Shown piece after piece: positions 5,095 through 60,907 of a stretch of 64,000 nucleotides of DNA (position 1 is its first letter; every line of letters begins with the position of its first letter). The stretch covers positions 1 through 64,000 of the forward strand of contig NZ_JTEV01000001.1 of assembly GCF_000786105.1 (NCBI RefSeq). Direction: 5' to 3'. The position numbers were made by a program, and so were the translations under genes. Under the pieces are notes generated by a model that did no database searches, was not told the DNA's origin, and saw only the letters and a program-made list of their open reading frames with translations. The stretch is from Bdellovibrio sp. ArHS. GTDB lineage: Bacteria; Bdellovibrionota; Bdellovibrionia; Bdellovibrionales; Bdellovibrionaceae.

Positions 5095-6407
5095 AAAAGC
5101 AGCTTCTAGACATCTTTAAAGGTTTCTCTAAACTTTCTCGTGAAGAAAGACTGAAAGCATTGATGGACGTGGGCGTTCTTCATGATTCTGATGTTGAGTA
5201 TCTGTCGAAGGGCGGGTTGCGCGACACTTCTTTGGGTGAAAAGTTCATCGAAAACGTGATCGGTTACTTCCAGCTTCCTTTGGGAGTTGCGACGAACTTC
5301 AATATCGATGGCAAAGACTACGTAATTCCCATGGCTGTTGAAGAAACTTCGATCGTCGCGGCAGTGTGCAAATCCGCCAAATGGATTCGGGAATCAGGTT
5401 CGATTACGACAGAAGTGGTCGGTAACGATATCATCGGACAGATCCAATGTGCGAAGATCAAAGACTTCACTCAGTTTGAAAAACAAATCCTGGCTCAGAA
5501 AAACTTCCTGATTGAAATTTCCAACCGTGAAGTGGCGTTCGGTTTAGTTCGCCGTGGTGGTGGTGTTCGCGACATCCAGGTCCGCCGAGTGCCGCGCGGT
5601 GATGGCAGCGACATGGCCGTGGTTCATGTTTTGATGGACCCTTGCGACGCAATGGGTGCCAACATCATGAATCAGGTTTGCGAGTTCTTAAAGGAACCGA
5701 TCGAACAATTTACCGGCGAAAAAGTGACGATGTGTATTCTGTCGAATCTTGTGGATTCCAAAATCACTCGCGCGACGGTTCACATCAAGGACATTGATCC
5801 TGAGTTGGCAGAAAAAATTGAAGAGGCCTCTTTGTTTGCGCAGCAAGATCCCTATCGTGCAGCGACCAACAACAAAGGTGTTCTTAACGGCATTGACCCG
5901 GTTCTTATCGCGACTGGAAACGACTGGCGCGCGGTCGAGGCTGGGATTCATGCTTACGCTTCTCGCGACGGACAGTATCGCTCTATCACTCGTTGGTTCC
6001 GTGATGGGGAAGGCGGCCTTAAAGGTGTTTTCGAAGCTCCGCTCATCGTTGGCACCGTTGGGGGTGTGACCACTCTTCATCCGACGGCAATGATGTGCAT
6101 GAAGATGTTGGGAACGACTTCTGCGAACGAACTTTCTCGAGTCATCGCGGCGGTGGGTTTGGTCCAAAACCTGGGCGCTTTAAAAGCGCTGACGACCGTA
6201 GGAATCATCGAAGGTCACATGAAGCTTCACACAAAAAACCTGGCCTTGGGTGCGGGTGCTGAAGAAAAAGAAATTCCGTTGGTGCAAAAGAAACTCGAAG
6301 AGATCCTGGCGGTTCGTAAACGCATCTCTTTAAGCAATGCAATCGACGTGCTTAAAGAGCTTCGTTCTTCACAAAGAGCGACGACGACCACACGCACACA
6401 TAGTTAG
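5091..6407 (+). CDS. mvaA: hydroxymethylglutaryl-CoA reductase, class II
   Basis: The 438-residue enzyme makes mevalonate from HMG-CoA with a nicotinamide cofactor. Class II features are clear: ENVIG (residues 54-58), MAVEETS with the catalytic Glu at 85, DAMGAN for nucleotide binding (186-191), NKG with catalytic Lys262, GNDWRAVEAG with Asp278, and GHM with His376. The Lys-to-Asp and Asp-to-His spacings equal those known for the Pseudomonas mevalonii enzyme. It overlaps fni by four bases (ATGA) and is followed eight bases later by the kinase gene. Cofactor preference (NADH or NADPH) cannot be told from the sequence. Confidence 0.94.
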   Translation: MKKQLLDIFKGFSKLSREERLKALMDVGVLHDSDVEYLSKGGLRDTSLGEKFIENVIGYFQLPLGVATNFNIDGKDYVIPMAVEETSIVAAVCKSAKWIRESGSITTEVVGNDIIGQIQCAKIKDFTQFEKQILAQKNFLIEISNREVAFGLVRRGGGVRDIQVRRVPRGDGSDMAVVHVLMDPCDAMGANIMNQVCEFLKEPIEQFTGEKVTMCILSNLVDSKITRATVHIKDIDPELAEKIEEASLFAQQDPYRAATNNKGVLNGIDPVLIATGNDWRAVEAGIHAYASRDGQYRSITRWFRDGEGGLKGVFEAPLIVGTVGGVTTLHPTAMMCMKMLGTTSANELSRVIAAVGLVQNLGALKALTTVGIIEGHMKLHTKNLALGAGAEEKEIPLVQKKLEEILAVRKRISLSNAIDVLKELRSSQRATTTTRTHS

Positions 6408-6415
6408 GAGAGGCC

Positions 6416-7315
6416 ATGTCCTTGGTCTTCTCTGTTCCCGGCAAAACTTTTATCGCAGGTGAATACCTGGCTTTGCAAGAAGGACCGACACTGGTCTTTC
6501 TGTCGCAGCCCTATTTTGAGCTGGAAGTGAATAGGGGACGTGGCAGCCTGGGAAGCATTCATCCCGATTCTCCGGCAGGCTTGTTTACACGTAAACATCA
6601 GGATTATTTCTCGCAGTTCGATCTGGTCTTTAAGGACCCTTATGCGGGCAAAGGGGGCTTTGGTGCCTCCACGGCGCAGTTTTTGGGTGCTTATGCTTTG
6701 TGGCTTTATCAAGAGGCTTCTCAGCAGGACATGGAAAAACTTTTGGACTTCAAACATCTTCTGGAAGCTTATTATGAAGTGGCCTGGAAAGGTGAAGGAC
6801 AGCGTCCTAGTGGCGCCGACCTCGTGGGGCAGCTAAAAGGCGCGCTGACATTCTTTGAGAAGCGCCAAGGTTTGATTTCTGTGAAGAGCTGGCCTTTTAC
6901 CGATCTTGAAATGCATCTGCTGCACACCGGGAACAAAGTCGCAACCCATGAACATCTAAAAAATCTTAAGACGTTCGACGTGACGGATCTTGAAAAAAGC
7001 TTTGCGGCGATTCGTGCGTCTTTTGAAGATCATGATAGTGCGGCTTTTATTGCGGGAATCACTTCTTATGGCGAGGCCTTAAAAAAATTAGGCTTTACCT
7101 GCAACGAAACTCTTTTCCTATTAAATGAAATCCAACAAATCCCCGGGGTGATGACGGCAAAGGGCTGTGGCGCTCTTGGTGCCGATGTGGTTCTTGTTAT
7201 CACCCGGAAAAATGAATCCGAACATCTGGCTCAGTTCTGTCAGTCGCGTCGTCTGTCTTTGACGGCGTCCTCGCAGAAAATCGCCAACGGTTTACAAGTT
7301 CGAGGAACTCTATGA
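6416..7315 (+). CDS. mvaK2: GHMP-family kinase, probable phosphomevalonate kinase
   Basis: The 299-residue protein has an N-terminal PGKTFIAGEYLAL segment and an atypical phosphate-binding loop KGGFGASTAQF in place of PxGxGLGSSAA, followed by PSGADLVGQLKG and a C-terminal GCGALGADV loop. This set fits GHMP small-molecule kinases, and the PSGAD segment favours phosphomevalonate kinase, which makes mevalonate diphosphate from phosphomevalonate. Position between HMG-CoA reductase and the decarboxylase supports this. A mevalonate kinase is already present downstream, so this is the remaining kinase step. The start has a GGAGAGG site just before it, and its end overlaps mvaD by four bases. Confidence 0.8.
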   Translation: MSLVFSVPGKTFIAGEYLALQEGPTLVFLSQPYFELEVNRGRGSLGSIHPDSPAGLFTRKHQDYFSQFDLVFKDPYAGKGGFGASTAQFLGAYALWLYQEASQQDMEKLLDFKHLLEAYYEVAWKGEGQRPSGADLVGQLKGALTFFEKRQGLISVKSWPFTDLEMHLLHTGNKVATHEHLKNLKTFDVTDLEKSFAAIRASFEDHDSAAFIAGITSYGEALKKLGFTCNETLFLLNEIQQIPGVMTAKGCGALGADVVLVITRKNESEHLAQFCQSRRLSLTASSQKIANGLQVRGTL

Positions 7316-8292
7316 AACAAGTTTTAGTGTCTGCTCCTTCTAATATCGCTCTTATAAAGTACATGGGTAAGATCGAGGGGTCTGGCAATAAGCCGACGAA
7401 CGGCTCTTTGTCCTATACCCTGGAAAACTTAAGAACCTATGTGCGTTTAACCCAGATTGATGAAGCTCAAGATCAGTGGAAGCTATTGGTTCGTGAAGAT
7501 CTTGAAAAAATGAATTTGTCAGAAAAAGGGCAGCAGCGTTTTTTAAAACATCTGCAAAATCTTAAAGATAAGTGGGGCGTGACTCAAAACTTTCTTGTCG
7601 AGTCGGCGAATAATTTTCCTTCCGACTGTGGGCTGGCTAGCTCCGCTTCGAGTTTCGCGGCTTTGACTTTAGCCGCGGCGGAAATGTTTCAGAAAATAAA
7701 TCCTCAGCCTTGGGGGGCGGATAGAAAAGTTTTGTCAGAGCTTTCTCGGCAAGGTTCGGGATCTTCTTGTCGTTCGTTGTTTTCGCCGTGGGCTCTTTGG
7801 TTGCACGAATACGCAGAGCCGATGAATTTGCCGGTGAAGGATCTGCATCATATCGTCGTCGTGGTGGAAGATAGCAAAAAAGAGGTTTCCAGTTCAGAAG
7901 CGCATAAACTTGTAACGACAAGCCCCCGTTTTGCAGGTCGCGTGGAACGCGCGGAAATTCGTCTGAAGGATCTTTCCCAAGCTTTGCAATTTGATGACTG
8001 GCACATGGCCCGTCAGATCGTCTGGGACGAGTTTATTGATATGCATCGCTTGTTTGAGACCAGCACGCCGTCGTTTAGCTATATGACAGATGAATCCAAG
8101 AAGGTTTTGGAGGAGTGCCAAAAGCTTTGGAACAAATGGCAAGACGGTCCGTTGGTGACAATGGATGCCGGCGCCAATGTGCATATGCTATTTAGAAACG
8201 ACCAAAAGAAGTCTTTCGAGACCTACCGAGAGCTCTTCCAAAAAGAGTATAAAGTTTTAGCCTTTGAAGGTGTTAAACCCGATGTCCATTGA
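7312..8292 (+). CDS. mvaD: diphosphomevalonate decarboxylase
   Basis: The 326-residue GHMP-superfamily enzyme converts mevalonate diphosphate to isopentenyl diphosphate. Seen in it are APSNIALIKYMGK (residues 8-20), where Met replaces the Trp usual in KYWGK, NGSLSYTL, the ATP loop LASSASSFAALTLA, SGSSCRSLF with the conserved Ser/Arg, and VTMDAGANVH with the catalytic-base Asp285. The N-terminal loop lacks the usual RD..LxLP pattern. The ATG overlaps the upstream stop (ATGA) and the gene end overlaps the next start by eleven bases. Confidence 0.88.
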   Translation: MKQVLVSAPSNIALIKYMGKIEGSGNKPTNGSLSYTLENLRTYVRLTQIDEAQDQWKLLVREDLEKMNLSEKGQQRFLKHLQNLKDKWGVTQNFLVESANNFPSDCGLASSASSFAALTLAAAEMFQKINPQPWGADRKVLSELSRQGSGSSCRSLFSPWALWLHEYAEPMNLPVKDLHHIVVVVEDSKKEVSSSEAHKLVTTSPRFAGRVERAEIRLKDLSQALQFDDWHMARQIVWDEFIDMHRLFETSTPSFSYMTDESKKVLEECQKLWNKWQDGPLVTMDAGANVHMLFRNDQKKSFETYRELFQKEYKVLAFEGVKPDVH

Positions 8293-9169
8293 TTTTACCT
8301 GTAAGTCCTTTGGCAAATGGATTCTTGCTGGCGAACATGCTGTTTTGCGTGGTGTGCCGGCTTTGGTTTTTCCAATTCAATCCCGAAATCTGGAATTGAA
8401 CTATTCGCGCACAGAATCTCCTTTAGAGTTGCGTCTAGTCGGCGATCACGGAAAAGACCTGCAGCTTTTAGTTTGGGGTGTTTTAGAGAAAGCCTGCGAA
8501 CTAAAAAAAATCCCACGCCATGATATCAAAGGTGTCTTACTTCTAGAGTCGTCAATTCCCGTTGGCGCGGGTATGGGCGCTTCGGCGGCGCTGTGTGTAG
8601 CTTTGACTCGTTGGTTGGGGTATCTGGGCTATGTACCTGAAAGTGAGTACTACGAGTTCGCCCGTGATTTGGAAAATCTTTTTCACGGTGAAAGCAGTGG
8701 CGTGGATATCGCAGTGGCATTGTCAGGCGAAGGTCTGTACTTCGTTCGCAATGGCGAGCGCAAACCTTTGGCGTCCGCGTGGAAACCCCGCTGGTATATT
8801 TCTTATTCGGGCAAGCGTGGCGTGACGGTGGATGCGGTGAACAAGGTGAAAGACCTGCTACTGCAGAATCCAGAGGTCGGTGAAAAAATCGACCAACAAA
8901 TGGCCCACGCGGTGACGTTGGCTCAGAAGGCTCTGCAGATGGATTCGCGAGAAGGATTGCCTCTTTTAGCGCAAGCAATTGAAGAAGGTGGTCAGTGTTT
9001 TGAACAGTGGGGCTTGAACGAAGGAGCTCCCGGTCTGCATATTCAGTGGCTTAAAGAGAAGGGCGCCCTGGCCGTAAAACCGACGGGGTCGGGTGGCGGA
9101 GGTTACGTGCTGTCGTTATGGGAGCAAGAGCCTGCTGCGGAAGTTCTAGAAAAACTGATTCCTTGTTAA
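8282..9169 (+). CDS. mvaK1: mevalonate kinase
   Basis: The product is 295 residues from ATG 8282 (an ATG six codons upstream lies deeper inside mvaD and has no better site). It has the mevalonate-kinase pattern: SFGKWILAGEHAVLRGVPAL at the N-terminus, the ATP-binding loop SSIPVGAGMGASAALCVALTRW, FHGESSGVDIAVALSG with the catalytic Asp region, and the C-terminal glycine loop KPTGSGGGGYVLSL. The enzyme phosphorylates mevalonate and so acts immediately after mvaA, even though its gene is last in the operon. Confidence 0.88.
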   Translation: MSIDFTCKSFGKWILAGEHAVLRGVPALVFPIQSRNLELNYSRTESPLELRLVGDHGKDLQLLVWGVLEKACELKKIPRHDIKGVLLLESSIPVGAGMGASAALCVALTRWLGYLGYVPESEYYEFARDLENLFHGESSGVDIAVALSGEGLYFVRNGERKPLASAWKPRWYISYSGKRGVTVDAVNKVKDLLLQNPEVGEKIDQQMAHAVTLAQKALQMDSREGLPLLAQAIEEGGQCFEQWGLNEGAPGLHIQWLKEKGALAVKPTGSGGGGYVLSLWEQEPAAEVLEKLIPC

Positions 9170-49362: not shown

Positions 49363-50750
49363 TGCAAAAAGATTTTGTGCTCTATTATATATTGTTTATG
49401 GCATTGGGATTGATATGGAACTTCTTCAGGAAGAACGATCTTGAGATTCTGCCAAGCTTTTTATGGCTGCTCTTGATGGTCTTACCATTCTGGGTTCAGT
49501 TCGACTCTTTTCCAAGCGTTTCCATTGCGAATCAAATGACCGGCATTGTCTTTATAGGAACCTGTTTGTTGGTGGCGGATTCAATTAAGATAAAGCCGAA
49601 CTCCGGTGCGAATAAACTAATGCCGGCCGCAGAAAAGTTCTTTAGCTCCTATTGGCTTTATGCCGGTCTCTTCATTCTTATAACGTCTTATCATATGAGT
49701 TTGATCCCTCATATTCCGCTTATCGAAAAGTATTTGCATGGTGTGACCGACCCGACAGAGTTAAGCCGAATGCGCGAAGACACTTCAAAACTTTTGAATG
49801 TTTCCAGTCTGCTTAAATTCTTATTCAACTGGGCGGCCAATATTCTGGCTCCGGTAAGTATTGTATTGGCACTTCGTAAAAAGAAATATTTATTAGCCGT
49901 TCTGTTTTTTATTATGGCCGCCTTGTATGCCGTTATGAGTCTGGCAAAGACCCAGATGGTGTTCTTAGGTATCGTTATCATCTTAAGTATTTTCTTTCAG
50001 ATGCCCTTTAAAAAGCGTTTATTGGGCTATCTTGTTTTGTTAATCTTGATGAGTCCCTTTCTTTATCAGGGTTATGATTTCCTCACTCACAGTCCTTTAA
50101 GTGTGATGAATTGGCAGGCCTCACAGGCAGAAATCGATCAGTTGAAGCTGTCGCCGGAAGATCCTCGAAGTCGTTTCACTCCCGGGGACCATTCGCGTCT
50201 AGCACCGCTGGACTTGGAAAAACGCCTCAGTGCTTCTGAAAGAGTTTATAATTACACCTTTTATCGAGTGTTCTTAGGCCCGGCAGATGTTTCAAGCCGA
50301 TGGTACCAATACTTTCCTGAGCACTCGGACGGTTTTATCGGACTTCAAGGTTTAAAAAGTAAAGACCGAGAAAACGCCGCCAAAACACATCCCGCTAGAC
50401 TCGTGGGACACTGGGCCTATACGGAACGATTTCCCAACCGTTACTTGGAAACAGTCCAAGCCTATGCGTCTGTTGATGCGGATGCTTATGCTCGATTTGG
50501 CATATTCGGAATTGTTCTTGCGGGTGTACTGGTGTTGGTGTTGCGAATCCTTCTTAAGGTTTTTCGTGATGGCTCAGAATTAGGTGAATCGCTTTACGTC
50601 ATCGCTCTGGTGTTGATGGGGTTATGGTGGTCCTCGGCCTCTGTTCAAGCGATTTTGTTGGCGCAAGGAGTTCTTCCAATTTTAGCTCTCTTGTGTCTGC
50701 GCTACGTCTTCGTTAAAATCAAAAAGTTTAGGAATCGAGAAGTGGTATGA
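49362..50750 (+). CDS. polytopic membrane protein, possible O-antigen polymerase
   Basis: The 462-residue protein has about ten predicted membrane segments. A long hydrophilic loop lies at roughly residues 240-370 with many Arg, Asp and His (PEDPRSRFTPGDHSRL, KTHPARLVGHWAYTERFPNRY). Overall layout suits a Wzy polymerase, but I do not see the Wzy_C motif, so the assignment rests on topology and position between a ligase-like gene and a glycosyltransferase. Start overlaps the previous stop, and the end overlaps the next gene by four bases. Confidence 0.65.
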   Translation: MQKDFVLYYILFMALGLIWNFFRKNDLEILPSFLWLLLMVLPFWVQFDSFPSVSIANQMTGIVFIGTCLLVADSIKIKPNSGANKLMPAAEKFFSSYWLYAGLFILITSYHMSLIPHIPLIEKYLHGVTDPTELSRMREDTSKLLNVSSLLKFLFNWAANILAPVSIVLALRKKKYLLAVLFFIMAALYAVMSLAKTQMVFLGIVIILSIFFQMPFKKRLLGYLVLLILMSPFLYQGYDFLTHSPLSVMNWQASQAEIDQLKLSPEDPRSRFTPGDHSRLAPLDLEKRLSASERVYNYTFYRVFLGPADVSSRWYQYFPEHSDGFIGLQGLKSKDRENAAKTHPARLVGHWAYTERFPNRYLETVQAYASVDADAYARFGIFGIVLAGVLVLVLRILLKVFRDGSELGESLYVIALVLMGLWWSSASVQAILLAQGVLPILALLCLRYVFVKIKKFRNREVV

Positions 50751-52018
50751 AAGTTTGGCTGGTCACAGTGGGAGAACCTCTGCCTACGGATAGCGGCGGT
50801 GTTCGTTTATTGAGAGTCGGTATTCTTGCAAATATGTTGAGCGAAGCGGGGCACGAGGTGGTCTGGTGGAATTCGACGTTTGATCATAGCCAAAAAAAGC
50901 ACCGGGCTTCCAGTAATACGGACATCCAGTATAAGGACAATTTTTTAATAAAATTACTTCGCGGCTGCGGCTATTCCGCCAATATTTCTTTGCGCAGAAT
51001 ATGGGATCATCTTCTGGTGGCTAGACAGTTTAAAAAATTAAGTAGAAACATGTCGAAGCCCGATGTGATTCTATGCTCTTTGCCGACCTTAGAGTTATCT
51101 TGGGCGACAGTTTCCTACGGAAGAAAGCACGGCGTCCCTGTCATTCTTGATATCAGAGACTTGTGGCCGGATTTATTTTTGGAACATGTGCCTGCAAAAT
51201 TGAGATTTGTAGCTAAGCTACTTTTGCTTCCGATGAAATGGATGGCTATTCATTCTTGTCGACGTGCGACTGCAATTACCGGTTGTGCTCCGGATTTTGT
51301 GGAGTGGGGATTAAATCTGGCAAATCGAAAAGCCAACCCTACGGACAAGTACTTCCCCTTTGGCTACAGTGTCGGAAAGATTTCCGCTACGGAACTGGAA
51401 AGTGCAAAGACGAAATGGCAAAGTAAGGGAATCACTAGAAACAGGGCCGATTTGATTGCCTGTTTTTTTGGGACCCTAGGGGCACAGTTTGATATCGAAA
51501 CGGTCATTGAGTCTGCAAGACAGCTTAAAGATAAAAATGCCTCTGCGTTGTTTGTTATTTGTGGCGCGGGAGAAAGTCTAGAAAGGTATAAGAATCTGGC
51601 AAAGGACCTGGATTCTGTCATTTTCCCTGGTTGGGTAGGGGCCGCCGACATTAAAGCTCTTATGGATATCTCAGATGTGGGACTTGCGCCTTACTATGAG
51701 AGTGTGGGATTTAAGGGCAATATCCCTAATAAAACAATCGAATATCTTTCCGCAGGGCTGCCTGTCGTATCCAGTTTGCGCGGTTACTTTGAAGATTTTT
51801 TAAGAGAACAGCAGTGTGGTGTTTCTTATGCAGCGGGAGATTCGCAAGCTCTGACAGCTCAGCTTTTAAGTGTTTTGAATAATAAGAGCGAGCTGTCCAA
51901 AATGAAGAACAATGCGTCTTCAGTTTTTAACGAAAGATTCAAGGCAGAAAATGTTTATGGAGATATGATTAAATATCTCCATAAAATCTCTTTAGCGAGT
52001 GGCTCCATTAATAATTAA
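50747..52018 (+). CDS. glycosyltransferase family 4 (WbuB-like)
   Basis: The 423-residue GT-B enzyme has an N-terminal GEPLPTDSGGVRLLRVGILANML loop, VILDIRDLWPD (the DxRDLWP motif of the WbuB group), ACFFGTLGAQFDIETVIESA and the C-terminal donor-binding region SVGFKGNIPNKTIEYLSAGLPVV. WbuB types use UDP- or dTDP-linked amino sugars in several O-antigens. The last 27 bases overlap the convergent sugar transferase gene and include its terminator hairpin. Confidence 0.85.
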   Translation: MKVWLVTVGEPLPTDSGGVRLLRVGILANMLSEAGHEVVWWNSTFDHSQKKHRASSNTDIQYKDNFLIKLLRGCGYSANISLRRIWDHLLVARQFKKLSRNMSKPDVILCSLPTLELSWATVSYGRKHGVPVILDIRDLWPDLFLEHVPAKLRFVAKLLLLPMKWMAIHSCRRATAITGCAPDFVEWGLNLANRKANPTDKYFPFGYSVGKISATELESAKTKWQSKGITRNRADLIACFFGTLGAQFDIETVIESARQLKDKNASALFVICGAGESLERYKNLAKDLDSVIFPGWVGAADIKALMDISDVGLAPYYESVGFKGNIPNKTIEYLSAGLPVVSSLRGYFEDFLREQQCGVSYAAGDSQALTAQLLSVLNNKSELSKMKNNASSVFNERFKAENVYGDMIKYLHKISLASGSINN

Positions 52019-52693
52019 TGGAGTTTTTCGGCTGGCAATTTCCAGAAGGTTGTCATCGGCACCCATAGACTTCAATAGTTTTTGCACACCATTGAGGGCG
52101 GTTTCTCTTGAAAACGGAGCAACAAGAGTCAGTAAAATGATGCAAATATCCCCGATAAACGTTCTGTTATGAACGTAGAAAAGACCCAACTTGATTTTTC
52201 CAGGTCTGATCAAGTGGTGATAAGCATAGTCCGGATCGCTGGCACCATTTAAGATATCACCTTCATCGGAATAAACTATGGAAGCAAAATCTGTGATGCC
52301 TTGATCGATGCTTAACAACTGTCTTTCGGTTTCGTTATAAGCGTCCGTTTCAACTTTCACGTTGGGTCTTGGGCCCACCAAGCTCATATCGCCAACCAGC
52401 ACATTCCATAGTTGCGTAATTTCATCAATTTTCCACTTTCTAATAAAGTGGCCAACTTGAGTGATTCTGGGATCGCTGGCGCTGGTTGAATTGACACCGG
52501 TTTTATCGGCGTTAAGGCGCATAGAGCGCATCTTTAGCATTCTAAAAATCTTCCCGTCTTTGCCAACGCGAGGGGCACGGTAAAAAGGCGATCCCTTATC
52601 TTCCTTCCAGACGAAAAACATCACCGGCAATAGGATCGGCGACAATGCCAACAAACCGAAAAAAGAAACAAAAATATCTAAAAGTCTTTTCAC
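51992..52693 (-). CDS. polyprenyl-phosphate sugar-1-phosphate transferase (monotopic type)
   Basis: The 233-residue protein is the bacterial sugar transferase domain only: an N-terminal re-entrant membrane helix (RLLDIFVSFFGLLALSPILLP), RVGKDGKIFRMLKMRSM, the catalytic Asp-Glu pair in KIDEITQLWNVLVGDMSLVGPRPN, and a C-terminal helix. It lacks the four extra membrane helices of WbaP/WcaJ, so it is PglC-like. It would transfer the first sugar phosphate to undecaprenyl phosphate and so start the repeat unit. Confidence 0.87.
   Translation of the reverse strand: MKRLLDIFVSFFGLLALSPILLPVMFFVWKEDKGSPFYRAPRVGKDGKIFRMLKMRSMRLNADKTGVNSTSASDPRITQVGHFIRKWKIDEITQLWNVLVGDMSLVGPRPNVKVETDAYNETERQLLSIDQGITDFASIVYSDEGDILNGASDPDYAYHHLIRPGKIKLGLFYVHNRTFIGDICIILLTLVAPFSRETALNGVQKLLKSMGADDNLLEIASRKTPLIINGATR
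52003..52028 (+). terminator. terminator formed inside the overlapping gene ends
   Basis: CTCCATTAA (52003-52011) and TTAATGGAG (52015-52023) form a nine-pair perfect stem with a three-base loop, followed by five T residues. It sits within the overlap of two convergent coding sequences, so it encodes the last residues of both proteins. Confidence 0.6.
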
Positions 52694-52711: not shown

Positions 52712-53632
52712 CTAATGAACCATCTTCAAGATGCGGTTCAGAATATATTCTGCATCCATGTTATAATATTTTCTCAAATAATTCTGGCTTCCGACCACAG
52801 ACGAGTAGGTATCTTGCAAGCCAATTCTTAAGAATTGTGATGGATAAGCTTGCGACATAAGGGCTGACTCGGCAACCGCTCCGGCAAGTCCTCCGGTCAG
52901 ATTGTGTTCTTCAATCGTGACAAGATACTTATGATTTTTAATAACGTCTTTTAGACCGTCGTCATCAAAAGGCTTAAGTGTGTGCACGCTAATCACGGAG
53001 CTGCTAATACCTAAAGTGTCGAGCTTTTTTGAAACTTCTAAGGCCACTTCGGTAATACCACCCACGCTAAGCAAAGCCAAACTGGAACCCTGTTTTAAAG
53101 TGCGAAGTTTTCCGAATTTAAAAGATTCGTTTTCTAACGGCACCGTATCCGCCTTGGATTTATCCAGTCTTAGATAACAAACGCCGGGGGTACTCGCGGT
53201 GGCTTTCGTCGCTTCTGCGGTTTCCCAAAGATCGCTTGGTGCGAAAACTTTGACACCGGGAAGAGATCGCATGATAGCCAAATCTTCCGTGGCGTGATGG
53301 GACATTCCCAGAGCGCCATAGCTGAAGCCCCCACCGATGCAAACGACTTTAACGTTGGCGTTGTGGTAGCAAGCATCGTTTCTGATTTGCTCCAGACAGC
53401 GCAAAGATGGAAAGTTTCCAATAGAATAGATGTAAACCGTTCGACCTTCCAGAGCAATTCCGGCAGCGACGCCAGCCATGTTCTGTTCGGCAACTCCGAT
53501 ATTAAGGAATTGGTTCGGAAATCTTTTGGCAAAGTCAGTTAAAACACCGAAGCCCAGGTCCCCTGTAATCAAGAATATTTTGGGATCTTTTTCTGCCAGT
53601 TCGGTCAGAGTTTTTATAAATTGATCTCTCAT
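52712..53632 (-). CDS. transketolase-like subunit, C-terminal half
   Basis: The 306-residue protein contains the pyrimidine-binding and C-terminal transketolase domains: FLNIGVAEQNMAGVAAGIALEG with the catalytic Glu, SMHHATED-like GMSHHATEDLAIMRSLPG, then VISVHTLKPFDDDG. With the upstream gene it would form an alpha2-beta2 transketolase that needs thiamine diphosphate. Its start overlaps the N-terminal subunit gene by four bases. The position suggests a role in making a modified sugar and not in the pentose phosphate cycle. Confidence 0.85.
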   Translation of the reverse strand: MRDQFIKTLTELAEKDPKIFLITGDLGFGVLTDFAKRFPNQFLNIGVAEQNMAGVAAGIALEGRTVYIYSIGNFPSLRCLEQIRNDACYHNANVKVVCIGGGFSYGALGMSHHATEDLAIMRSLPGVKVFAPSDLWETAEATKATASTPGVCYLRLDKSKADTVPLENESFKFGKLRTLKQGSSLALLSVGGITEVALEVSKKLDTLGISSSVISVHTLKPFDDDGLKDVIKNHKYLVTIEEHNLTGGLAGAVAESALMSQAYPSQFLRIGLQDTYSSVVGSQNYLRKYYNMDAEYILNRILKMVH

Positions 53633-54447
53633 TTTTTCCCCTCAAGCTCAGCCAGAGCTGATTCGAACTCTTCTCCTTTAGCCGTACGATAATGCCAAAG
53701 AACCGAGTTTTCCATGAAAGAAACACCTTTTCCTTTGGTCGTATGGGCAATCACGCAAAGAGGTTTTTCTGTCGTCGCAAGATTTTCGGTGATTTTTGTT
53801 TCAAGGTCTTGATGATTGTGTCCATCGACTTCGACGACATTCCAGCCGAAGCTTTGCCATTTGGAGGCGAAAGGCTCCAAAGCCAAAGTTTCCTGAACCG
53901 ACGCCAGACTTTGAATCTTATTGTAGTCGATGATTGCCACTAAGTTAGATAATTTATGATGGCCAGCGAATAGAATGGCTTCCCAGTTTGAACCTTCGTC
54001 GCATTCGCCGTCACTGAGCAGAACAAAGACTCGATGTTTTTTCTTATCGAGCTTCGCCGCGTAGGCCATGCCGGCGCCGACGGGCAGGCCATGCCCTAAG
54101 GAACCGGTTGATAGTTCAACGCCCGGAATGTCCTTATGAGAAACGTGACCACTCAAAATAGAGCCATCTTGGTAGTGAGTTTCTAGCACCGACGTACTGA
54201 AAAAACCTCTTTCCGCAAGCGCCGCATAAACACCGGCACCCGCGTGCCCTTTGCTTAAGATGAAGCGATCGCGGTTGGGGTCTTTCGGATTCTCGGGGTT
54301 AACATGAAGAACTTTGCCGTATAAAACGGCAACGATATCTGCCATCGAGAATACCGAGCCGATATGAGAACTTCCACCTTTGCTGGTCATTCTTAAGGCG
54401 TGAATGCGAATTTTCTTTGCGAGACTGGCCAAATCCATAACGTCCAT
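53629..54447 (-). CDS. transketolase-like subunit, N-terminal half (thiamine-diphosphate binding)
   Basis: The 272-residue protein has MTSKGGSSHIGSVFSMADIVAVLYG, DRFILSKGHAGAGVYAALAERG, STGSLGHGLPVGAGMA and SDGECDEGSNWEA, the thiamine-binding region that ends in D-Y-N-K-I-Q. It is the first half of a split transketolase. It follows a TylF-type methyltransferase gene closely and overlaps its partner, so the three may act together. Confidence 0.87.
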   Translation of the reverse strand: MDVMDLASLAKKIRIHALRMTSKGGSSHIGSVFSMADIVAVLYGKVLHVNPENPKDPNRDRFILSKGHAGAGVYAALAERGFFSTSVLETHYQDGSILSGHVSHKDIPGVELSTGSLGHGLPVGAGMAYAAKLDKKKHRVFVLLSDGECDEGSNWEAILFAGHHKLSNLVAIIDYNKIQSLASVQETLALEPFASKWQSFGWNVVEVDGHNHQDLETKITENLATTEKPLCVIAHTTKGKGVSFMENSVLWHYRTAKGEEFESALAELEGKK

Positions 54448-54455
54448 CCAAACGA

Positions 54456-55211
54456 TTAGTCGATAACTGCAAATCCAATATAAGGGTCAAAATCAAGGCG
54501 TTCTATGCGCAATTTCTTCTGCGCCGTCGCCTCAAGCATGGCCATGGTTTCACCTGGCCATAGCGGATTATCCAACTCATCAAACGCAATGACGGCCCCT
54601 TTAGGCATTCTTGGTAAGAAGTGCTCCAAAGCCACCTTGGTGGGTTCGTATAAGTCAAAATCCAGGAACAAAAGGCTCACGAGAAGGTGCGGATGTTCTT
54701 CGATAAATTTCGGAATGGTTTGTGTGGCATCACCTTTGATCAGTTTGACCTTAGGGATGTGCCCCAGGAATCTTGTGGAATCGTTGATTTCCGCCAACTT
54801 TAAGATTTCTTCTTGCGAGTCCGCATACAGATCGCCGCGCTTTACGTGCGCTGAAAAGTTATTGAGATCTTTTTCCGAAACCGCAGGAAAGCCGGCAAAG
54901 GAATCGAAACCGTAAATTCGTCGGGTCAAGTTCACTGGCTCAAGGATGGCGGAAAGCTTCGCCCATGTCATTGTTCCAAAACCCCGAAAAACCCCACATT
55001 CGATGATGGAGCCTTTTACCGGCTGAACTCTTTTAAAGATTTCATACAACGCCAAGAAACGCGTTAGGTTCTGTCTGCGTACGTATTTGGGAAAGTTTTC
55101 AAGTTTCTTTTCCCAGGGTTCTGGATTTTTCTCGAAGCACTCCTTGATCAGTTGTGCTTCGACTTTTTCTGCATTTGTTCGGAGGCCGGCCTCGACATTC
55201 ACAGTTGTCAT
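54456..55211 (-). CDS. TylF/MycF-type sugar O-methyltransferase
   Basis: The 251-residue protein shows ECGVFRGFGTMTWAKL (SAM-binding loop), YGFDSFAGFPAVSEKD and the metal-binding FLDFDLYEPTKVALEHFLPRM and FDELDNPLWPGE, which match macrocin O-methyltransferases. These enzymes methylate sugar hydroxyls using Mg. It lies between the aminotransferase and transketolase genes in a sugar-building block. Confidence 0.83.
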   Translation of the reverse strand: MTTVNVEAGLRTNAEKVEAQLIKECFEKNPEPWEKKLENFPKYVRRQNLTRFLALYEIFKRVQPVKGSIIECGVFRGFGTMTWAKLSAILEPVNLTRRIYGFDSFAGFPAVSEKDLNNFSAHVKRGDLYADSQEEILKLAEINDSTRFLGHIPKVKLIKGDATQTIPKFIEEHPHLLVSLLFLDFDLYEPTKVALEHFLPRMPKGAVIAFDELDNPLWPGETMAMLEATAQKKLRIERLDFDPYIGFAVID

Positions 55212-55224
55212 GTAAAAATAGTCC

Positions 55225-56337
55225 TTAGTTCTTTTTGTAAAATTTTGTAATCACATCACAGATATATTCAACGTCGGAATTCTCAAGTGATGTATTCATT
55301 GGTAATAAGAAGAACTTTTTCGTCATTTCTTCAGTTCTTGGAACGTCGTCGTTCAACTTTAGATCTTTAAATTGATGCAAAGTTTTTCCGCCCCATTGAA
55401 TGATGGTTTTGACACCGTTGTCGTCAAGATGCTTGCGCAAAGCATCTCTTTGTTCGGCTTCAACTTCATAGTTTTGGAAAATGTCGAAATGATTTGGGTC
55501 TGAGTTTGGTCCAGGAGGTAACAACAACTCAGGGATGTCACTCAGTCTCTCTGTATATATAGAGGCCAAAGCTCTTCGTTTGGTGATGGCTTGGTCGTAA
55601 GTCTTTAGCTTGTAATTCAAAACAGCGGCTTGAACGTTGTCTAATCTAGAGTTGTAGCCCCACTCGATAACATTGCCTGTGGTAGGGCTGCGGCCGTGGT
55701 CACGAAGAAGGCGGATATAATCAGCAACTTCGTCATTGTCCGTGAAAACAGCTCCGCCATCACCAAAACAGCCTAGAGTCTTTGAAGGGTAGAAGCTGCA
55801 AGAACCGGATACGCCGAAAGTTCCTGCAAATTTGCCTTTAAATTTAGAACCCAAGGCTTGGGCCGAGTCTTCAACGATCTTGAGCCCGTGATCGTCAGCG
55901 ATTTTGCAGATCATGTCCATGTTGGCAGTTCTGCCATTAAGCTGAACGGGCATGATGGCCTTGGTTTTTTTGGTAATTTTTTTCAGAATGGATTCTGGAT
56001 CAATAAGATGATCTCTTCCGCAGTCCGCTAAGACAACCTTTGCCCCGACGTGGTGCGCGGCTGCGGCGGTGGCGACAAATGTGTGCGAAGGGACGATGAC
56101 TTCGTCACCCTCGGTGACTTTCGCGGCACGAAGTCCCATCATCAGGGCGATAGTGCCGTCGGCAACGCCGATACAGTGTTTAACCCCGAGATACTTTGCC
56201 AGATTCTCTTCGAACTCAAAGAGATCTTTTTGCATGATGTACGCGCCACGAGCGAGGACATCATTAATTATTGGCATGAGGTCCTTTTCTTCTTTTGCGA
56301 AAAGGGCAGGATAGTTGAAAAAGGGGATCTGTTTCAT
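55225..56337 (-). CDS. DegT/DnrJ/EryC1/StrS-family sugar aminotransferase
   Basis: The 370-residue PLP enzyme has IGVADGTIALMMGLRAA, VIVPSHTFVATAAAAHHVGA, EDSAQALGSKFKGKFAG and the Schiff-base Lys186 in SCSFYPSKTLGCFGDGG, followed by NSRLDNVQAAVL. It would convert a keto sugar nucleotide to an amino sugar. The likely supplier of a keto sugar within this locus is the CapD/WbpM-type enzyme. Its start overlaps the upstream methyltransferase stop by four bases. Confidence 0.9.
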   Translation of the reverse strand: MKQIPFFNYPALFAKEEKDLMPIINDVLARGAYIMQKDLFEFEENLAKYLGVKHCIGVADGTIALMMGLRAAKVTEGDEVIVPSHTFVATAAAAHHVGAKVVLADCGRDHLIDPESILKKITKKTKAIMPVQLNGRTANMDMICKIADDHGLKIVEDSAQALGSKFKGKFAGTFGVSGSCSFYPSKTLGCFGDGGAVFTDNDEVADYIRLLRDHGRSPTTGNVIEWGYNSRLDNVQAAVLNYKLKTYDQAITKRRALASIYTERLSDIPELLLPPGPNSDPNHFDIFQNYEVEAEQRDALRKHLDDNGVKTIIQWGGKTLHQFKDLKLNDDVPRTEEMTKKFFLLPMNTSLENSDVEYICDVITKFYKKN

Positions 56338-57119
56338 TGTTTTCCTTTTTTTGTAGCTTTGAAATATAAAACTTGATGTTCGAAATCTTCTTTAGATGCA
56401 GAAATGGATACTGGCGGCTTGTATTTTAACTCAGAGCTGGTCAGCTCTTTCGGCATAGTGACCAGCTTTCCGAAGACGAGCCTTTTTAGAAGCTTTTTGC
56501 CGCTCATCGAGCCTGGGATAAGGTTGAATGTGACCGCGAATTTTTTTAAGGCACTGAAGATCTTGTTTTTCAGTCCTTGTCTGGAAATGGGGCTGCCCCC
56601 GAAGCACTCGACGGAAAAATCCTTTGAGTTTAGCAGCGCCGTCAACTCCGGAACCGTATAGTATTTGGTAGAGTGAGGGCTGGGGTTGAAATCGAAAAGA
56701 CTGCAGTTGGCGGTCGCCAGAAGTAAAGTTCCCTCAGGTCGTAAGATGCGGCGGCACTCGTCGATAAACTTTGCGGCATCAGGTAAATAATAGATAGCTT
56801 CAAACAAGATAACGACGTCGAAAGAGGCGTCTGCAAAAGGGCTGTTTTGCGCATCAAAAGGAAGCAACTTAATGCGATCTTTATAGTGATTTTTTGCGAC
56901 AGATAAGACTGTTTCAGAAAAATCTCCGGCGGTCAGTGATTTGCTTTGGCTGGAAAGATAGCCTAAACCCGGGCCGGTTCCGCAGGCGGCTTCCAGAACG
57001 TCTTTGCCTCCGGTATACTGGGCAGCCCAACCATATCGTTGAAAAAAACGAAAGAGTTGATCTTTTGAAACCTCGTCACCGGCAAGTTCGGTAACATTTA
57101 AAAAATTTGTTTCAGACAT
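56334..57119 (-). CDS. SAM-dependent methyltransferase (type 11)
   Basis: The product is 261 residues from ATG 57119. A frame upstream to 57245 adds 42 residues with no homology-like features and was not used. Motif I is VLEAACGTGPGLGYL, followed by DFSETVL, DVVILFEAIYYLPD and RILRPEGTLLLAT, a class I methyltransferase or isoprenoid quinone/sugar type. The C-terminal third is basic. The substrate is unknown, but context suggests a sugar. Confidence 0.78.
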   Translation of the reverse strand: MSETNFLNVTELAGDEVSKDQLFRFFQRYGWAAQYTGGKDVLEAACGTGPGLGYLSSQSKSLTAGDFSETVLSVAKNHYKDRIKLLPFDAQNSPFADASFDVVILFEAIYYLPDAAKFIDECRRILRPEGTLLLATANCSLFDFNPSPHSTKYYTVPELTALLNSKDFSVECFGGSPISRQGLKNKIFSALKKFAVTFNLIPGSMSGKKLLKRLVFGKLVTMPKELTSSELKYKPPVSISASKEDFEHQVLYFKATKKGKQ

Positions 57120-57709
57120 TGCATGCTCGCAGTTTAATTTGTTCGGGTGATAGCGAGGAACTATAGTACATAATTTATTTGGTTTGTAAATTTTTCTTAA
57201 GAAATCGAAATATTTAGTGCGGGATTCTGCTTGAAGACTGAGCATCGCGCTGAGTGATGCGATGCGCTTAATCTGAAAACTGTCGAGTGTGGGCGGGGCT
57301 CGCGAGGTGGCAGTGGAGTTGCCGAAGATGTCGGCAGCAAGATTTCATAAAAAGTGAAACAAAGAAAAGGCCGGAAGCCCAAGGCTCGAGTTCAAGCTCG
57401 ATCCTGAAATTTTGAAAAGTGAGTATTCAGAAACTCAGGGCGATGCGGATAGTCAGGGGTGCCCAGCATTTTTGCCGCCTGCTCTGCGGAAAAGTAAGAC
57501 GGGCGAGAGATCTGGGGTGCCGGTCTTCCTGAGTAGAAATCGAGCAGAAACTTCGTTGGCGTATTCGCTGAAAAAGCCGCTGCGAAGTGGGGGGATGAAG
57601 AAGAGAATTTGACTCTCTGGGATAAATACTTATTTCGGGAGCTAAAACTGTTTACTTAACTTCCTCGGTAAGGATAGGATTCATCGTCTATCTTGGTAGT
57701 TGGGGAAAT
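57120..57709. other. 590-base region without a supported gene
   Basis: Only short frames occur here and none has a convincing start site or family. From about 57240 the composition is richer in G than the flanking genes, and GGGGTGCC occurs twice about 50 to 60 bases apart. A possible promoter for the next gene is TTTACT (57651-57656) with TAGGAT (57675-57680), 18 bases apart. It may hold an old gene remnant or a leader RNA. Confidence 0.4.
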
Positions 57710-59011
57710 ATGAAAAATTTAGTTTCGAAGATTAAGTCAAAGAATTCTGTTATTGGAATTGTTGGTTTGGGTTATGTCGGATTGCCGTTGGCGTTGCGCT
57801 TTTCTGAAGAGGGCTTTCCTGTAGTTGGATTTGATATTGATGAAGCGAAGATTAAAAAAATTCGCGCTGGTGAAAGTTATATTGAGCACATTCATGCATC
57901 GGATGTAAGGGCCGCGACGGCGCGTAACTTTACGGTCACCACGGATTTTTCCGAAGCTTCTAAAGTGGACGCCATTATTCTTTGCGTGCCGACGCCTCTT
58001 AATAAATATCGTGAACCTGACTTGAGCTTCGTTTTAAATACCACGGAAAGTCTTGTTCCTTATTTACGTCAGGGACAAATTGTTTCACTGGAAAGTACAA
58101 CATATCCTGGGACCACCGATGAAGAATTGAAACCACGCATCGAGTCTAGAGGATTCAAAGTTGGGGAAGACATATTTTTGGTCTTCTCTCCAGAGCGTGA
58201 AGATCCGGGCAATCCCAAGTTTTCGACTAAAACTATTCCCAAGGTGGTCGGTGGGTACTCGCAAGCCTGCCTAGAAGTCGGAATGGCTCTTTATGGCGGC
58301 GTTATTGATAAGGTGGTTCCTGTCAGCTCAACCCGAGCTGCGGAAATGACCAAGCTCTTGGAAAACATCCATCGCGCGGTGAACATCGGGCTTGTGAACG
58401 AAATGAAAATTGTCGCAGACAAGATGGGTCTTGATATTCACGAGATCATTGATGCCGCGGCGACGAAGCCGTTTGGATTTGTGGCTTATCGTCCTGGACC
58501 GGGAATCGGTGGGCACTGTATTCCTATCGATCCTTTCTACTTAACTTGGAAGGCCCGCGAATACGGTCTGCACACAAGATTCATTGAGTTGGCGGGTGAG
58601 GTTAATACTGCCATGCCAAAGTATGTGATGAAGAAAATTGCGGTCGCTTTGAATGAGCGCGAGAAATCCGTGAAGGGCTCGAAGGTCCTTGTACTGGGGA
58701 TCTCTTATAAAAAGAATATCGACGACATGCGCGAGTCGCCGTCGGTATTCCTAATGGAAAAACTCAGAGATGACGGCGCGAAATTAGACTATTCAGATCC
58801 GCATGTTCCGGTTTTCCCGAAAATGCGTGAACATCGCTTTGATCTTAAATCAGTGGCACTGACCCCTGAAGTGATTCAGGGCTACGATTGTGTTGTTTTG
58901 ACGACAGATCACGATAGGTTTGACTACGACATGATTTTGAAAAATTCAAAACTGCTTGTGGATACTCGGGGTAAGTACCGTCAACCGGCGCCAAATCTGG
59001 TAAAAGCCTAA
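57710..59011 (+). CDS. wbpA: UDP-N-acetylhexosamine 6-dehydrogenase (WbpA/WecC type)
   Basis: The 433-residue enzyme oxidises C6 of UDP-GlcNAc (or UDP-GalNAc) to the uronic acid with NAD. It has [14 protein letters not shown] (NAD loop, residues 16-29), [36 protein letters not shown], and the catalytic Cys270 in [11 protein letters not shown]. The C-terminal domain contains [17 protein letters not shown]. Residues favour the WbpA/WecC group over UDP-glucose dehydrogenase. It starts the last part of the locus and supplies a uronic acid amino sugar. Confidence 0.9.
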
Positions 59012-59041: not shown

Positions 59042-60907
59042 ATGTCCTTTTTTGTAAAACTGTCGGCATGGCCGCGACGATTGAAGATATTGTTGATGAT
59101 GTTTACAGACGTCATCCTCTTGCCATTCGTGCTGTGGCTGGCGATTGCTCTTCGTTTCGGAACCGTAAGCCCCCGTATCGGAGAATACCTTTGGCTATTC
59201 TTGGTTTTGCCAATTATTGCCATTCCTATCTTTACGCGGTTGGGCCTGTATCGCTCGATAGTGCGATATACAAGTGCGAAATTTTTCTGGACAGTTTTCT
59301 ACGGCGTTTCAGTGCTTTCCATTTTGTTGTTAGCCTTGGTGGCCCTGGTCAGATTGGATCAGGTGCCGCGCTCAAGTCTTGTTATATTTTGGATTCTGGC
59401 CATCGGCTGTATCGCCGTCACGCGAGCATTAGCTCGGGTTGTTATCCTCAGTGCCGAGCAGGTGGGTGTTGCACGAAAAAAGGTGGCTATCTATGGTGCC
59501 GGCAAAGCGGGCACTCAAATAGCTTTTGCCCTCGTGAACTCCAAGGAGTTCAATCCGGTCGCTTTCTTTGATGATGATCCGGATTTGCAGGGGCACTATT
59601 TGGCCGGACTTAAAGTGTTCGGACCTGATGAATTTGAGGCGGTTCTGGTCAAAAAGAATATTGATGAGATTGTTTTGGCTATTCCATCGGCGGCCCGCAG
59701 TCGTCGCAGAGAAATCATCGAGGGCTTGCGACCCTATGGTGCGGTCTTAAAAACAGTGCCCGGGGTTGCGGAACTTGTGAACGGTTCCGTCACAGTGAGT
59801 GACCTGCGTGAAGTCGGTATTGAGGACTTGTTGGGGCGCGATGCCGTGCCGCCTGACGAAAGTCTTTTACGAAAGTGCTTGTTTGAAAAGACGGTGCTGA
59901 TCACGGGGGCTGGTGGCTCTATCGGCTCTGAGTTGTGCCGACAAATAGCGAAGCACGCTCCTTCCTTACTAATCCTTTTGGATAATTCTGAATTCGCTCT
60001 TTACAGTATAGAGCGGGAAATGCGCATACACTTTCCTCAGCTTCGGGTGAAACCGGTTCTTGCCGATGTATGTGATGAAAAAGCCCTGCGCCGAGTTTTT
60101 TTGGAAGCGCAGATCGACACTGTTTACCATGCAGCTGCCTACAAGCATGTGCCTTTGGTTGAAGAAAATCCCGGTGTGGGTATTGTTAATAATGCGATTG
60201 GAACTTTACGAGTCTCCTCTTTATCTCAAGAATTCGGAGTATCTCACTTTGTCCTGATTTCCACCGATAAAGCCGTTAGACCCACGAATGTCATGGGTGC
60301 TTCAAAGCGCCTTTCTGAGTTGATTCTTCAAGCCTATGCCGAAACATCCACGCGGACGATCTTTTCCATGGTCCGTTTTGGAAACGTCCTGGGTTCTTCC
60401 GGTTCTGTTGTGCCTCTTTTTAAAGAGCAGATCAGAAAAGGCGGGCCCGTAACGGTGACTCATCCGGATGTTATCCGCTATTTTATGACCATCCCTGAAG
60501 CCGCCCAACTTGTGATTCAAGCAGGGGCGATGGCACAAGGGGGTGAAGTATTTGTTCTAGATATGGGCGAGCCCGTAAGAATTGTGGAGCTGGCCCGACG
60601 AATGGTCGAGCTGAGCGGATTGACGGTTAAAGATTCGTCCTGCCCTAAGGGAGATGTTGAAATCGTTTACAGTGGTTTGCGTCCCGGGGAAAAGCTCTAT
60701 GAAGAGTTGTTAATTGGTGCGGATGCTGAGAAAACCTCCCATCCTCGCATTCTCAGAGCGAAAGAATACTCCTTACCGAAAGAGACTATTCTGGAGGCAT
60801 TGGGTCGTCTTGAGATCGTCTGCGCGCAAGGTGACGCTGGGTTGATTAAAGACTCGTTATCACGTGTGGTTCACGAATATGTTCCGCACCAAATGAAAAA
60901 CCCCTAG
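59042..60907 (+). CDS. membrane-bound nucleotide-sugar 4,6-dehydratase (CapD/WbpM/PglF type)
   Basis: The 621-residue protein has four N-terminal membrane helices (to residue about 135), a first Rossmann region (VAIYGAGKAG), and a C-terminal SDR domain from about residue 280 with ITGAGGSIGSEL, YHAAAYKHVPLVE, ISTDKAV and NVMGASKR. In this last motif Met stands where most SDRs have Tyr, as is normal in WbpM-type enzymes. It makes a 4-keto-6-deoxy UDP-sugar that the DegT aminotransferase could use. Confidence 0.9.
   Translation: MSFFVKLSAWPRRLKILLMMFTDVILLPFVLWLAIALRFGTVSPRIGEYLWLFLVLPIIAIPIFTRLGLYRSIVRYTSAKFFWTVFYGVSVLSILLLALVALVRLDQVPRSSLVIFWILAIGCIAVTRALARVVILSAEQVGVARKKVAIYGAGKAGTQIAFALVNSKEFNPVAFFDDDPDLQGHYLAGLKVFGPDEFEAVLVKKNIDEIVLAIPSAARSRRREIIEGLRPYGAVLKTVPGVAELVNGSVTVSDLREVGIEDLLGRDAVPPDESLLRKCLFEKTVLITGAGGSIGSELCRQIAKHAPSLLILLDNSEFALYSIEREMRIHFPQLRVKPVLADVCDEKALRRVFLEAQIDTVYHAAAYKHVPLVEENPGVGIVNNAIGTLRVSSLSQEFGVSHFVLISTDKAVRPTNVMGASKRLSELILQAYAETSTRTIFSMVRFGNVLGSSGSVVPLFKEQIRKGGPVTVTHPDVIRYFMTIPEAAQLVIQAGAMAQGGEVFVLDMGEPVRIVELARRMVELSGLTVKDSSCPKGDVEIVYSGLRPGEKLYEELLIGADAEKTSHPRILRAKEYSLPKETILEALGRLEIVCAQGDAGLIKDSLSRVVHEYVPHQMKNP

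Follow-up and report, generated by a model that had tools for sequence, protein, structure and literature searches.

We analysed a window of 64,000 nucleotides from Bdellovibrio sp. ArHS (NZ_JTEV01000001.1, positions 1 to 64,000) in which two adjacent genes encode the N-terminal and C-terminal halves of a split transketolase (TKN and TKC, respectively). The most probable role of this pair, to which we assign a probability of about 0.57, is transfer of a hydroxyacetyl unit to a keto nucleotide sugar, followed by amination or reduction of the ketone on the new branch. Each chemical step is one that we infer from features observed in the DNA, namely the anatomy of the genes, the pattern of partner genes, the co-occurring keto-sugar enzymes and the residue changes in the active site.

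An earlier note on this stretch had placed the split transketolase beside TylF and DegT genes, and Pfam matches and coordinates confirm that arrangement. The features concerned are listed below (SAM, S-adenosylmethionine; PGT, phosphoglycosyltransferase).

53629-54447, minus strand: TKN, N half of the split transketolase, 272 aa (Transketolase_N PF00456, 151.4 bits, cut-off 22)
52712-53632, minus strand: TKC, C half of the split transketolase, 306 aa (Transket_pyr PF02779, 112.3 bits, cut-off 27; second domain Transketolase_C PF02780, 72.4 bits, cut-off 25.9)
55225-56337, minus strand: DegT/DnrJ/EryC1/StrS aminotransferase, the proposed branch-ketone aminotransferase (PF01041, 321.5 bits, cut-off 19.8)
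54456-55211, minus strand: TylF-family sugar O-methyltransferase, an optional member of the cassette (PF05711, 51.7 bits, cut-off 23)
56334-57245, minus strand: class I SAM-dependent methyltransferase, at the head of the run (PF08241, 75.4 bits)
51992-52693, minus strand: Bac_transf PGT, which would start the glycan on a lipid carrier (PF02397, 171.6 bits)
59042-60907, plus strand: nucleotide-sugar 4,6-dehydratase, Polysacc_synt_2, presumably of the CapD/WbpM type and the proposed source of a 4-keto acceptor (PF02719, 395.8 bits; N-terminal PF13727)
57710-59011, plus strand: nucleotide-sugar dehydrogenase, not assigned to the branching step (TIGR03026, 433.8 bits, cut-off 189.8)
50747-52018, plus strand: group 1 glycosyltransferase, convergent neighbour (PF00534, 75.5 bits)

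The six minus-strand genes form a head-to-tail run from 57245 to 51992 (methyltransferase, DegT, TylF, TKN, TKC, PGT) in which neighbours overlap by 4 bp or are separated by at most 18 bp. The methyltransferase gene overlaps that of DegT by 4 bp, and the gaps are 13 bp (DegT-TylF), 8 bp (TylF-TKN) and 18 bp (TKC-PGT). TKN and TKC also overlap by 4 bp, which would allow translational coupling. The nucleotide-sugar dehydrogenase and the 4,6-dehydratase are encoded just upstream of the run on the opposite strand. The run sits in a polysaccharide locus, whose product may be an O-antigen, a capsule, an exopolysaccharide or a lipopolysaccharide, and the gene set holds both a source of keto nucleotide sugar (the 4,6-dehydratase) and a candidate enzyme for tailoring a branch ketone (DegT).

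All three transketolase domains of the pair score above their Pfam gathering thresholds. Neither half reached the NCBIfam cut-off for a whole transketolase (488 bits); transketolase was nonetheless the best model for each, with 284 bits for TKN (against 46 bits for pyruvate dehydrogenase (PDH) E1 alpha) and 179 bits for TKC (against 150 bits for DXS and 59 bits for PDH beta). The nearest solved chains by sequence were 6yak for TKN (E 9.4e-77) and 6yaj for TKC (E 2.5e-56), both from the split transketolase of Carboxydothermus.

We propose that TKN and TKC would together form a thiamine diphosphate (ThDP)-dependent transketolase. Its donor would probably be a common ketose phosphate, from which a two-carbon hydroxyacetyl unit would pass to the ring ketone of a keto nucleotide sugar. 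The likeliest acceptor in the window operon would be the uridine diphosphate (UDP)-4-keto-6-deoxy-hexosamine expected from the neighbouring 4,6-dehydratase. The branched sugar so formed is predicted to have a tertiary alcohol, with a ketone on its branch. In the window this ketone would be aminated by DegT, while in other loci its reduction would fall to an aldo/keto reductase (AKR) or an epimerase-type short-chain dehydrogenase/reductase (SDR). The branched sugar could then be methylated by TylF, by the class I methyltransferase or by both, and the PGT would load it on the lipid carrier, probably as the first sugar. The earlier note had suggested that the enzyme moves a two-carbon unit onto or off a nucleotide sugar; the branched product is the best-supported reading, while a shortened sugar gained no support.

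To place the window pair among its relatives, contigs were scanned with an alignment of TKC, and the best 80 of 508 relatives were kept. These are the nearest loci rather than a census; they come from 17 named phyla, with six records lacking a phylum (L and G numbers below are locus and genome labels; L046 is the same DNA as L105, and L053 the same as L094). TKN lies beside TKC on the same strand in 77 of the 80. Thirteen loci gave no clean pair of open reading frames (ORFs), and in the 67 pairs that could be measured TKN overlaps TKC in 57. In L098 TylF separates TKN from TKC, and in L114 DegT stands between TKC and a TKN encoded on the opposite strand. A comparison of the block across polysaccharide loci, as the earlier note had recommended, showed that the window order DegT-TylF-TKN-TKC-PGT recurs in 12 of the 80 loci, all from other genomes and all in Pseudomonadota, so that this order is not a product of chance. 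In four of the twelve (L089, L091, L103 and L116) a methyltransferase gene also heads the run. DegT-TKN-TKC, at 52-70% identity, was found in two genomes of the window's taxonomic order (L094 and L105 of the 80).

The same taxonomic order contains six further split pairs, presumed to be housekeeping enzymes, as no full-length transketolase is listed for their genomes. The partner families are absent from their surroundings. In a tree of 89 rows these six pairs form their own branch (support 96), and 68 of 69 cassette rows, together with one row of the cytidine diphosphate (CDP) type described below, form another (support 99).

Between the window and L089 (Gallionellaceae), DegT and TylF are 79% and 83% identical, compared with 66% for TKN and 56% for TKC, as would be expected if parts of a mosaic cassette had been exchanged separately.

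The genes next to the pair were tallied at 53 of the 80 loci, those whose two halves share a strand and whose DNA extends for 3.5 kb or more to either side; the other 27 had short flanks or no same-strand pair. Within 1.2 kb and on the same strand, the carbonyl-processing partner was DegT in 34 loci, AKR in 8 and an epimerase-type SDR in 4, with none in 7, and in no locus did two kinds occur together. Pfam confirmed the AKR and SDR assignments in the representatives scanned. On the transketolase tree (53 labelled rows: 43 DegT, 10 AKR), DegT and AKR alternate at least eight times, a count that is approximate because some branches are weakly supported or very long. The simplest reason for such swaps is that DegT, AKR and SDR act on one and the same carbonyl.

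Other neighbours are less constant. TylF lies on the same strand within 3.5 kb in 23 of the 53 loci, and we therefore rejected it as an obligatory member of the cassette; a class I methyltransferase is found within the same limits in 12. The earlier note described a block of four genes; the run comprises six, and TylF is optional. A PGT is present within 3.5 kb on the same strand in 40 of the 53 loci, distributed by partner as 31/34 (DegT), 8/8 (AKR), 0/4 (SDR) and 1/7 (no partner).

The loci with an SDR partner differ in their sugar genes. Relatives of rfbF and rfbG were found in all four SDR loci, in none of the 34 DegT or 8 AKR loci, and in one of the 7 without a partner; around the window pair, queries with rfbF, rfbG and rfbH gave no match within 9.5 kb. 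In L148 (Smithellaceae) the gene order is CDP-glucose 4,6-dehydratase, RfbH, an oxidoreductase with an NAD-binding domain, glucose-1-phosphate cytidylyltransferase, TKN, TKC and SDR. Three of these products score above their NCBIfam cut-offs (4,6-dehydratase, 477.5 against 278.45; RfbH, 688.7 against 423; cytidylyltransferase, 332 against 300.25). A Methylovirgula plasmid locus reads rfbF-rfbG-SDR-rfbH-TKN-TKC. On a plasmid of Paenibacillus cellulosilyticus the order is rfbF-rfbG-methyltransferase-[SDR fused to TKN]-TKC-TylF, and the natural fusion of an epimerase-type SDR with TKN occupies L175:10097-12004. The Smithellaceae and Methylovirgula loci resemble the yersiniose pathway with a transketolase in the place of YerE. 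The comparison with yersiniose made in the earlier note was apt, as the transketolase is paired with a CDP-dideoxyhexose gene set in two loci.

Active-site residues were compared, in E. coli TktA numbering, for 69 cassette pairs (67 of the 80 loci, the window and L046, which duplicates L105; the 13 loci without a clean ORF pair were dropped). H26, H66, H100, N185, E411 and H473 are kept in all 69 pairs and D155 in 68, and the window pair keeps all seven. We take these to be the ThDP, metal and donor-site residues. By contrast, the window TKC has G, L and I at the places of H461, D469 and F434. Across the cassette pairs H461 is replaced by G (69/69), F434 by I (69/69), D469 by L (62/69) and S385 by G (48/69), while position 520 is K or R in 69/69 and position 358 is R in 68/69. 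As a control, all six presumed housekeeping split pairs keep both H461 and D469; these pairs have Q at H473. In TktA, H461 presumably binds the substrate phosphate, and D469 presumably reads the hydroxyl next to the acceptor aldehyde. On this assumption, loss of both residues fits an acceptor that is not phosphorylated or is a ketone.

Position 469 also varies with the partner. It is Q or A in all six SDR-type pairs (L142, L148, L153, L154, L175 and L176) and L in the non-SDR pairs, except for L140 (V), L139 (M) and L149 (A, beside rfbH). The acceptor site therefore seems to differ, by residue 469, where the predicted acceptor differs, a pattern that may in part reflect kinship.

Several observations weigh against a sugar-branching role. 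The partner rule is softer with distance: L109 has both AKR and SDR within 3.5 kb, DegT occurs elsewhere in the fetched DNA at four of the eight AKR loci (in L092 only 84 bp away, on the other strand), and a distant SDR is found at 2 of the 34 DegT loci. Of the seven loci counted as partnerless, L122, L138 and L150 have an AKR, and L132 an SDR, on the other strand or further away; no partner was seen in L115, L129 or L139. Relatives of the 4,6-dehydratase occur in only 19 of the 53 loci, counting either strand and anywhere in the fetched DNA. In the tree, 30 of 86 inner branches have support below 80 and several are very long. The residue equivalences are those of an alignment only, and the SDR residue pattern partly reflects kinship. 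We found no known activity, product or structure for members of the cassette family. Finally, a Rhizobium split pair that lies beside an FGGY kinase and is probably catabolic likewise carries L at 469, with S at 461; such changes alone do not imply a nucleotide-sugar acceptor, and may mark ketone acceptors generally. The Rhizobium setting is possibly similar to that of AptAB, which we take to be a split, catabolic apulose-4-phosphate transketolase with phosphosugar substrates and a ketone on one side of the reaction.

The alternative that survives best, although we consider it unlikely, is that the pair acts on free sugar phosphates. It would then make an unusual precursor (for instance an amino tetrose or pentose phosphate) for later activation and incorporation into the glycan, with DegT or the reductase acting on that small sugar or elsewhere. 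Transketolases classically use phosphosugars, and the conserved K/R at 520 and R at 358 could leave some capacity to bind phosphate. On the other hand, neither H461 nor D469 is retained, a nucleotide keto sugar is already made by the CDP-type loci, and a PGT needs a nucleotide sugar.

It is also unlikely, and we rank this second among the alternatives, that DegT, AKR and SDR act on the ring C4 ketone while the transketolase has a separate task in the glycan. Such action on a ring C4 ketone is known from the bacillosamine, QuiNAc and abequose pathways, and UDP-4-keto sugars are the normal substrates of such enzymes. The DegT and reductases of the cassette could do the same, which would tell against branch-ketone tailoring, as would the best NCBIfam model for the window DegT, the 4-keto-sugar aminotransferase PseC, even though its score of 194.8 bits is far below the cut-off of 423.5. 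The SDR family is not tied to branching, since a member with 32% identity belongs to an Azospirillum rfbF-rfbG-rfbH set for which the 12.9 kb shown contain no annotated transketolase. Nevertheless, separate tasks would leave unexplained both the restriction to one kind of partner per locus and the SDR-TKN fusion. Among solved structures, moreover, the window DegT is closest to 7b0d, 2oga, QdtB (3frk) and WbpE (3nyu), at 208-227 bits, and is thus nearer to QdtB and WbpE than to perosamine synthetase (150 bits), ArnB (130 bits) or 2fn6 (102 bits).

We regard as very improbable a third alternative, in which attack of the two-carbon unit on a ketone is followed by rearrangement to a glycolate ester, so that the glycan would bear a glycolyl group instead of a branch. 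It is not obvious how a saturated ring ketone could lead to such an ester, and the carbonyl-processing partners would have no role. The precedent is Rif15, described in the available text as a two-subunit transketolase with overlapping genes that uses a ketone acceptor and gives an ester (PMC6002545). With fructose 6-phosphate, xylulose 5-phosphate and other donors it converts the ketone of rifamycin S in vitro (PMC6002545). It resembles the window pair in its two subunits and overlapping genes and, as predicted for that pair, in its ketone acceptor and ketose donors; it differs in its product and in an acceptor quite unlike a keto nucleotide sugar.

Least probable of all is that the window pair is the cell's housekeeping transketolase and merely sits in a polysaccharide locus, a reading we reject on the evidence of missing neighbouring sequence, the full-length genes of relatives and the separate tree branch of the presumed housekeeping pairs, which also lack the partner genes (0/6).

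The earlier note had held that its proposal would fail if this pair were the only complete transketolase of the genome. In the source assembly (G000; 3.54 Mb, 47 contigs, 95.9% complete) that is nominally the case. A Transketolase_N search returned the window pair and one 984-aa frame only, the latter taken to be a PDH E1, and the full-length transketolase of a relative (G001) matched only the window pair (24-28% identity) and one further sequence at E 0.22. However, a transketolase frame of 674 aa or more is present in 22 of 23 relatives from the same genus, and in the remaining one the match is split over two frames. The gene hemE, found about 20-30 kb from the transketolase gene tkt in all four relatives tested, is absent from the assembly as well. 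In G001, the genes next to tkt look by eye like those for cheR, cheA and adenosine deaminase, and the heme genes lie 22-32 kb off. From 147 kb on, G001:C1 is 79-81% identical at the DNA level to contig C13 of G000, while the preceding 59 kb (54.4 kb searched) gave only matches to one gene, at 66-82%, and short matches. This region, G001:C1:88001-147000, which holds tkt as well as heme, mutY-like and pcnB-like genes, is almost unmatched in the G000 assembly. The G001 cheA protein found only 30-37% relatives there, and its adenosine deaminase found no match in a search that had no positive control.

Because hemE and the neighbouring sequence are missing too, the absence of tkt is probably unspecific, and missing sequence is its likeliest cause. 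Contig C13 continues for about 10 kb beyond the break in synteny with unrelated genes, so we keep a rearrangement beside the gap, or a true deletion, as a possibility that we do not favour. No pair as strong as that of the window was found in the 23 same-genus relatives; other split pairs occur in seven of them (N half 32-40% identical, C half 27-34%). Four loci of the genus (L038-L041, from G010, G011, G022 and G009) carry another split transketolase beside a relative of aminotransferases; this relative is 392 aa long in three of them, whereas L041 has it in shorter frames. All four have Q where TktA has H66.

Hydroxyacetyl transfer to a keto nucleotide sugar has a counterpart in antibiotic biosynthesis. 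According to the available text of a 2025 review, ketone-acceptor transketolases in sugar branching are only proposed, with 13 putative Streptomycetes sequences and none characterised (PMC12247030). For miharamycin and amipurimycin, a split-gene transketolase is proposed there for hydroxyacetyl transfer to a keto sugar (PMC12247030). Compared by description only, these are Streptomycetes antibiotic systems, whereas the cassette lies in surface-polysaccharide loci of 17 named phyla and has DegT, AKR or SDR partners.

Two other ThDP-dependent systems branch sugars. YerE (yersiniose A) attaches a two-carbon branch to a CDP-4-keto-3,6-dideoxy sugar destined for a surface glycan, but the available text places it in the decarboxylase superfamily with pyruvate as donor (PMC12247030). 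Genes for a CDP sugar of this kind are present in L148 and L176, whereas the queries found none within 9.5 kb of the window pair. The window pair matched transketolase, E1, DXS and phosphoketolase families and, weakly, 2-oxoacid:acceptor oxidoreductase, and did not class with the YerE-type decarboxylases. The alphaKADH2 enzymes (Pau11/Pau12 and kibdelomycin) are two-subunit and ThDP-dependent and add a two-carbon sugar branch that is later reduced or transaminated; in the portions of the sources available they use pyruvate and leave an acetyl branch (PMC12247030, PMC4753412). Membership of this PDH-type group was rejected, as both halves of the window pair score highest as transketolase. The AKR Pau7 reduces a C-4 acetyl sugar branch (PMC4753412), and the branch ketone of kibdelomycin is transaminated (PMC12247030). 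Together with Rif15, these precedents, as given in the accessible text, match the steps proposed for the cassette. The split transketolase of Carboxydothermus hydrogenoformans (6yaj, 6yak) has the same two-chain architecture as TKN/TKC, but its C chain keeps H and D at the places of TktA H461 and D469.

The gene association is not wholly unreported. A 2026 paper describes the wps-2 exopolysaccharide cluster of Actinoplanes missouriensis, predicted to make a Wzx/Wzy polysaccharide (PMC13390465). Consecutive tags there encode a methyltransferase, TKN, TKC, DegT, GT2, a second DegT and a GNAT-bacterial sugar transferase (PMC13390465). In the text seen, domains are given and no reaction is assigned to the transketolase, so the likeness to the cassette is one of gene content. 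Deletion of the whole cluster left sporangia normal, and the words monosaccharide and sugar composition are absent from the main text (PMC13390465). The rest of the literature searched, by titles and abstract openings and with most subscription papers outside it, held no description of the gene association.

A broader reading, which we hold tentatively and at somewhat less than even odds, is that split transketolases are a third, widespread class of sugar-branching enzymes in bacterial surface glycans, alongside the YerE-like and PDH-like classes. As parts of the same reading, they would place a hydroxyacetyl branch on UDP- or CDP-4-keto sugars, with residue 469 differing between the two kinds; interchangeable DegT, AKR and SDR partners would decide between an amino-alcohol and a diol branch end; and the branched amino sugar would often be the first sugar on the lipid carrier. 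We know of no source of this branched amino sugar.

The cassette offers many candidates for ketone-acceptor transketolases, from 17 named phyla and with clear gene partners. It would make the proposal of branching by split transketolases directly testable, and in two CDP-type loci the predicted acceptor is the known YerE substrate. If the reading is true, branched amino sugars are predicted in surface glycans, and the enzyme could serve as a biocatalyst for functionalised tertiary alcohols.

Other relatives of thiamine enzymes were also seen. L043, L044, L045 and L054 carry a further type of split transketolase beside a gene for 632-671 aa, with E at the place of TktA D155 in all four. In L139 (Acidobacteria; 5834-9157), TKN-TKC comes immediately after genes that by eye resemble those for a lipoyl-domain protein and for the alpha and beta subunits of an E1, and the beta-like E1 gene matched the TKC query at 23%. 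Thirty phage records, including human-gut, Listeria and Acinetobacter entries, hold TKC relatives below 60% identity; some of these may be bacterial DNA. Elsewhere in the window, at 4039-9169, a five-gene run resembles by eye the mevalonate pathway (isomerase, HMG-CoA reductase, kinases and decarboxylase).

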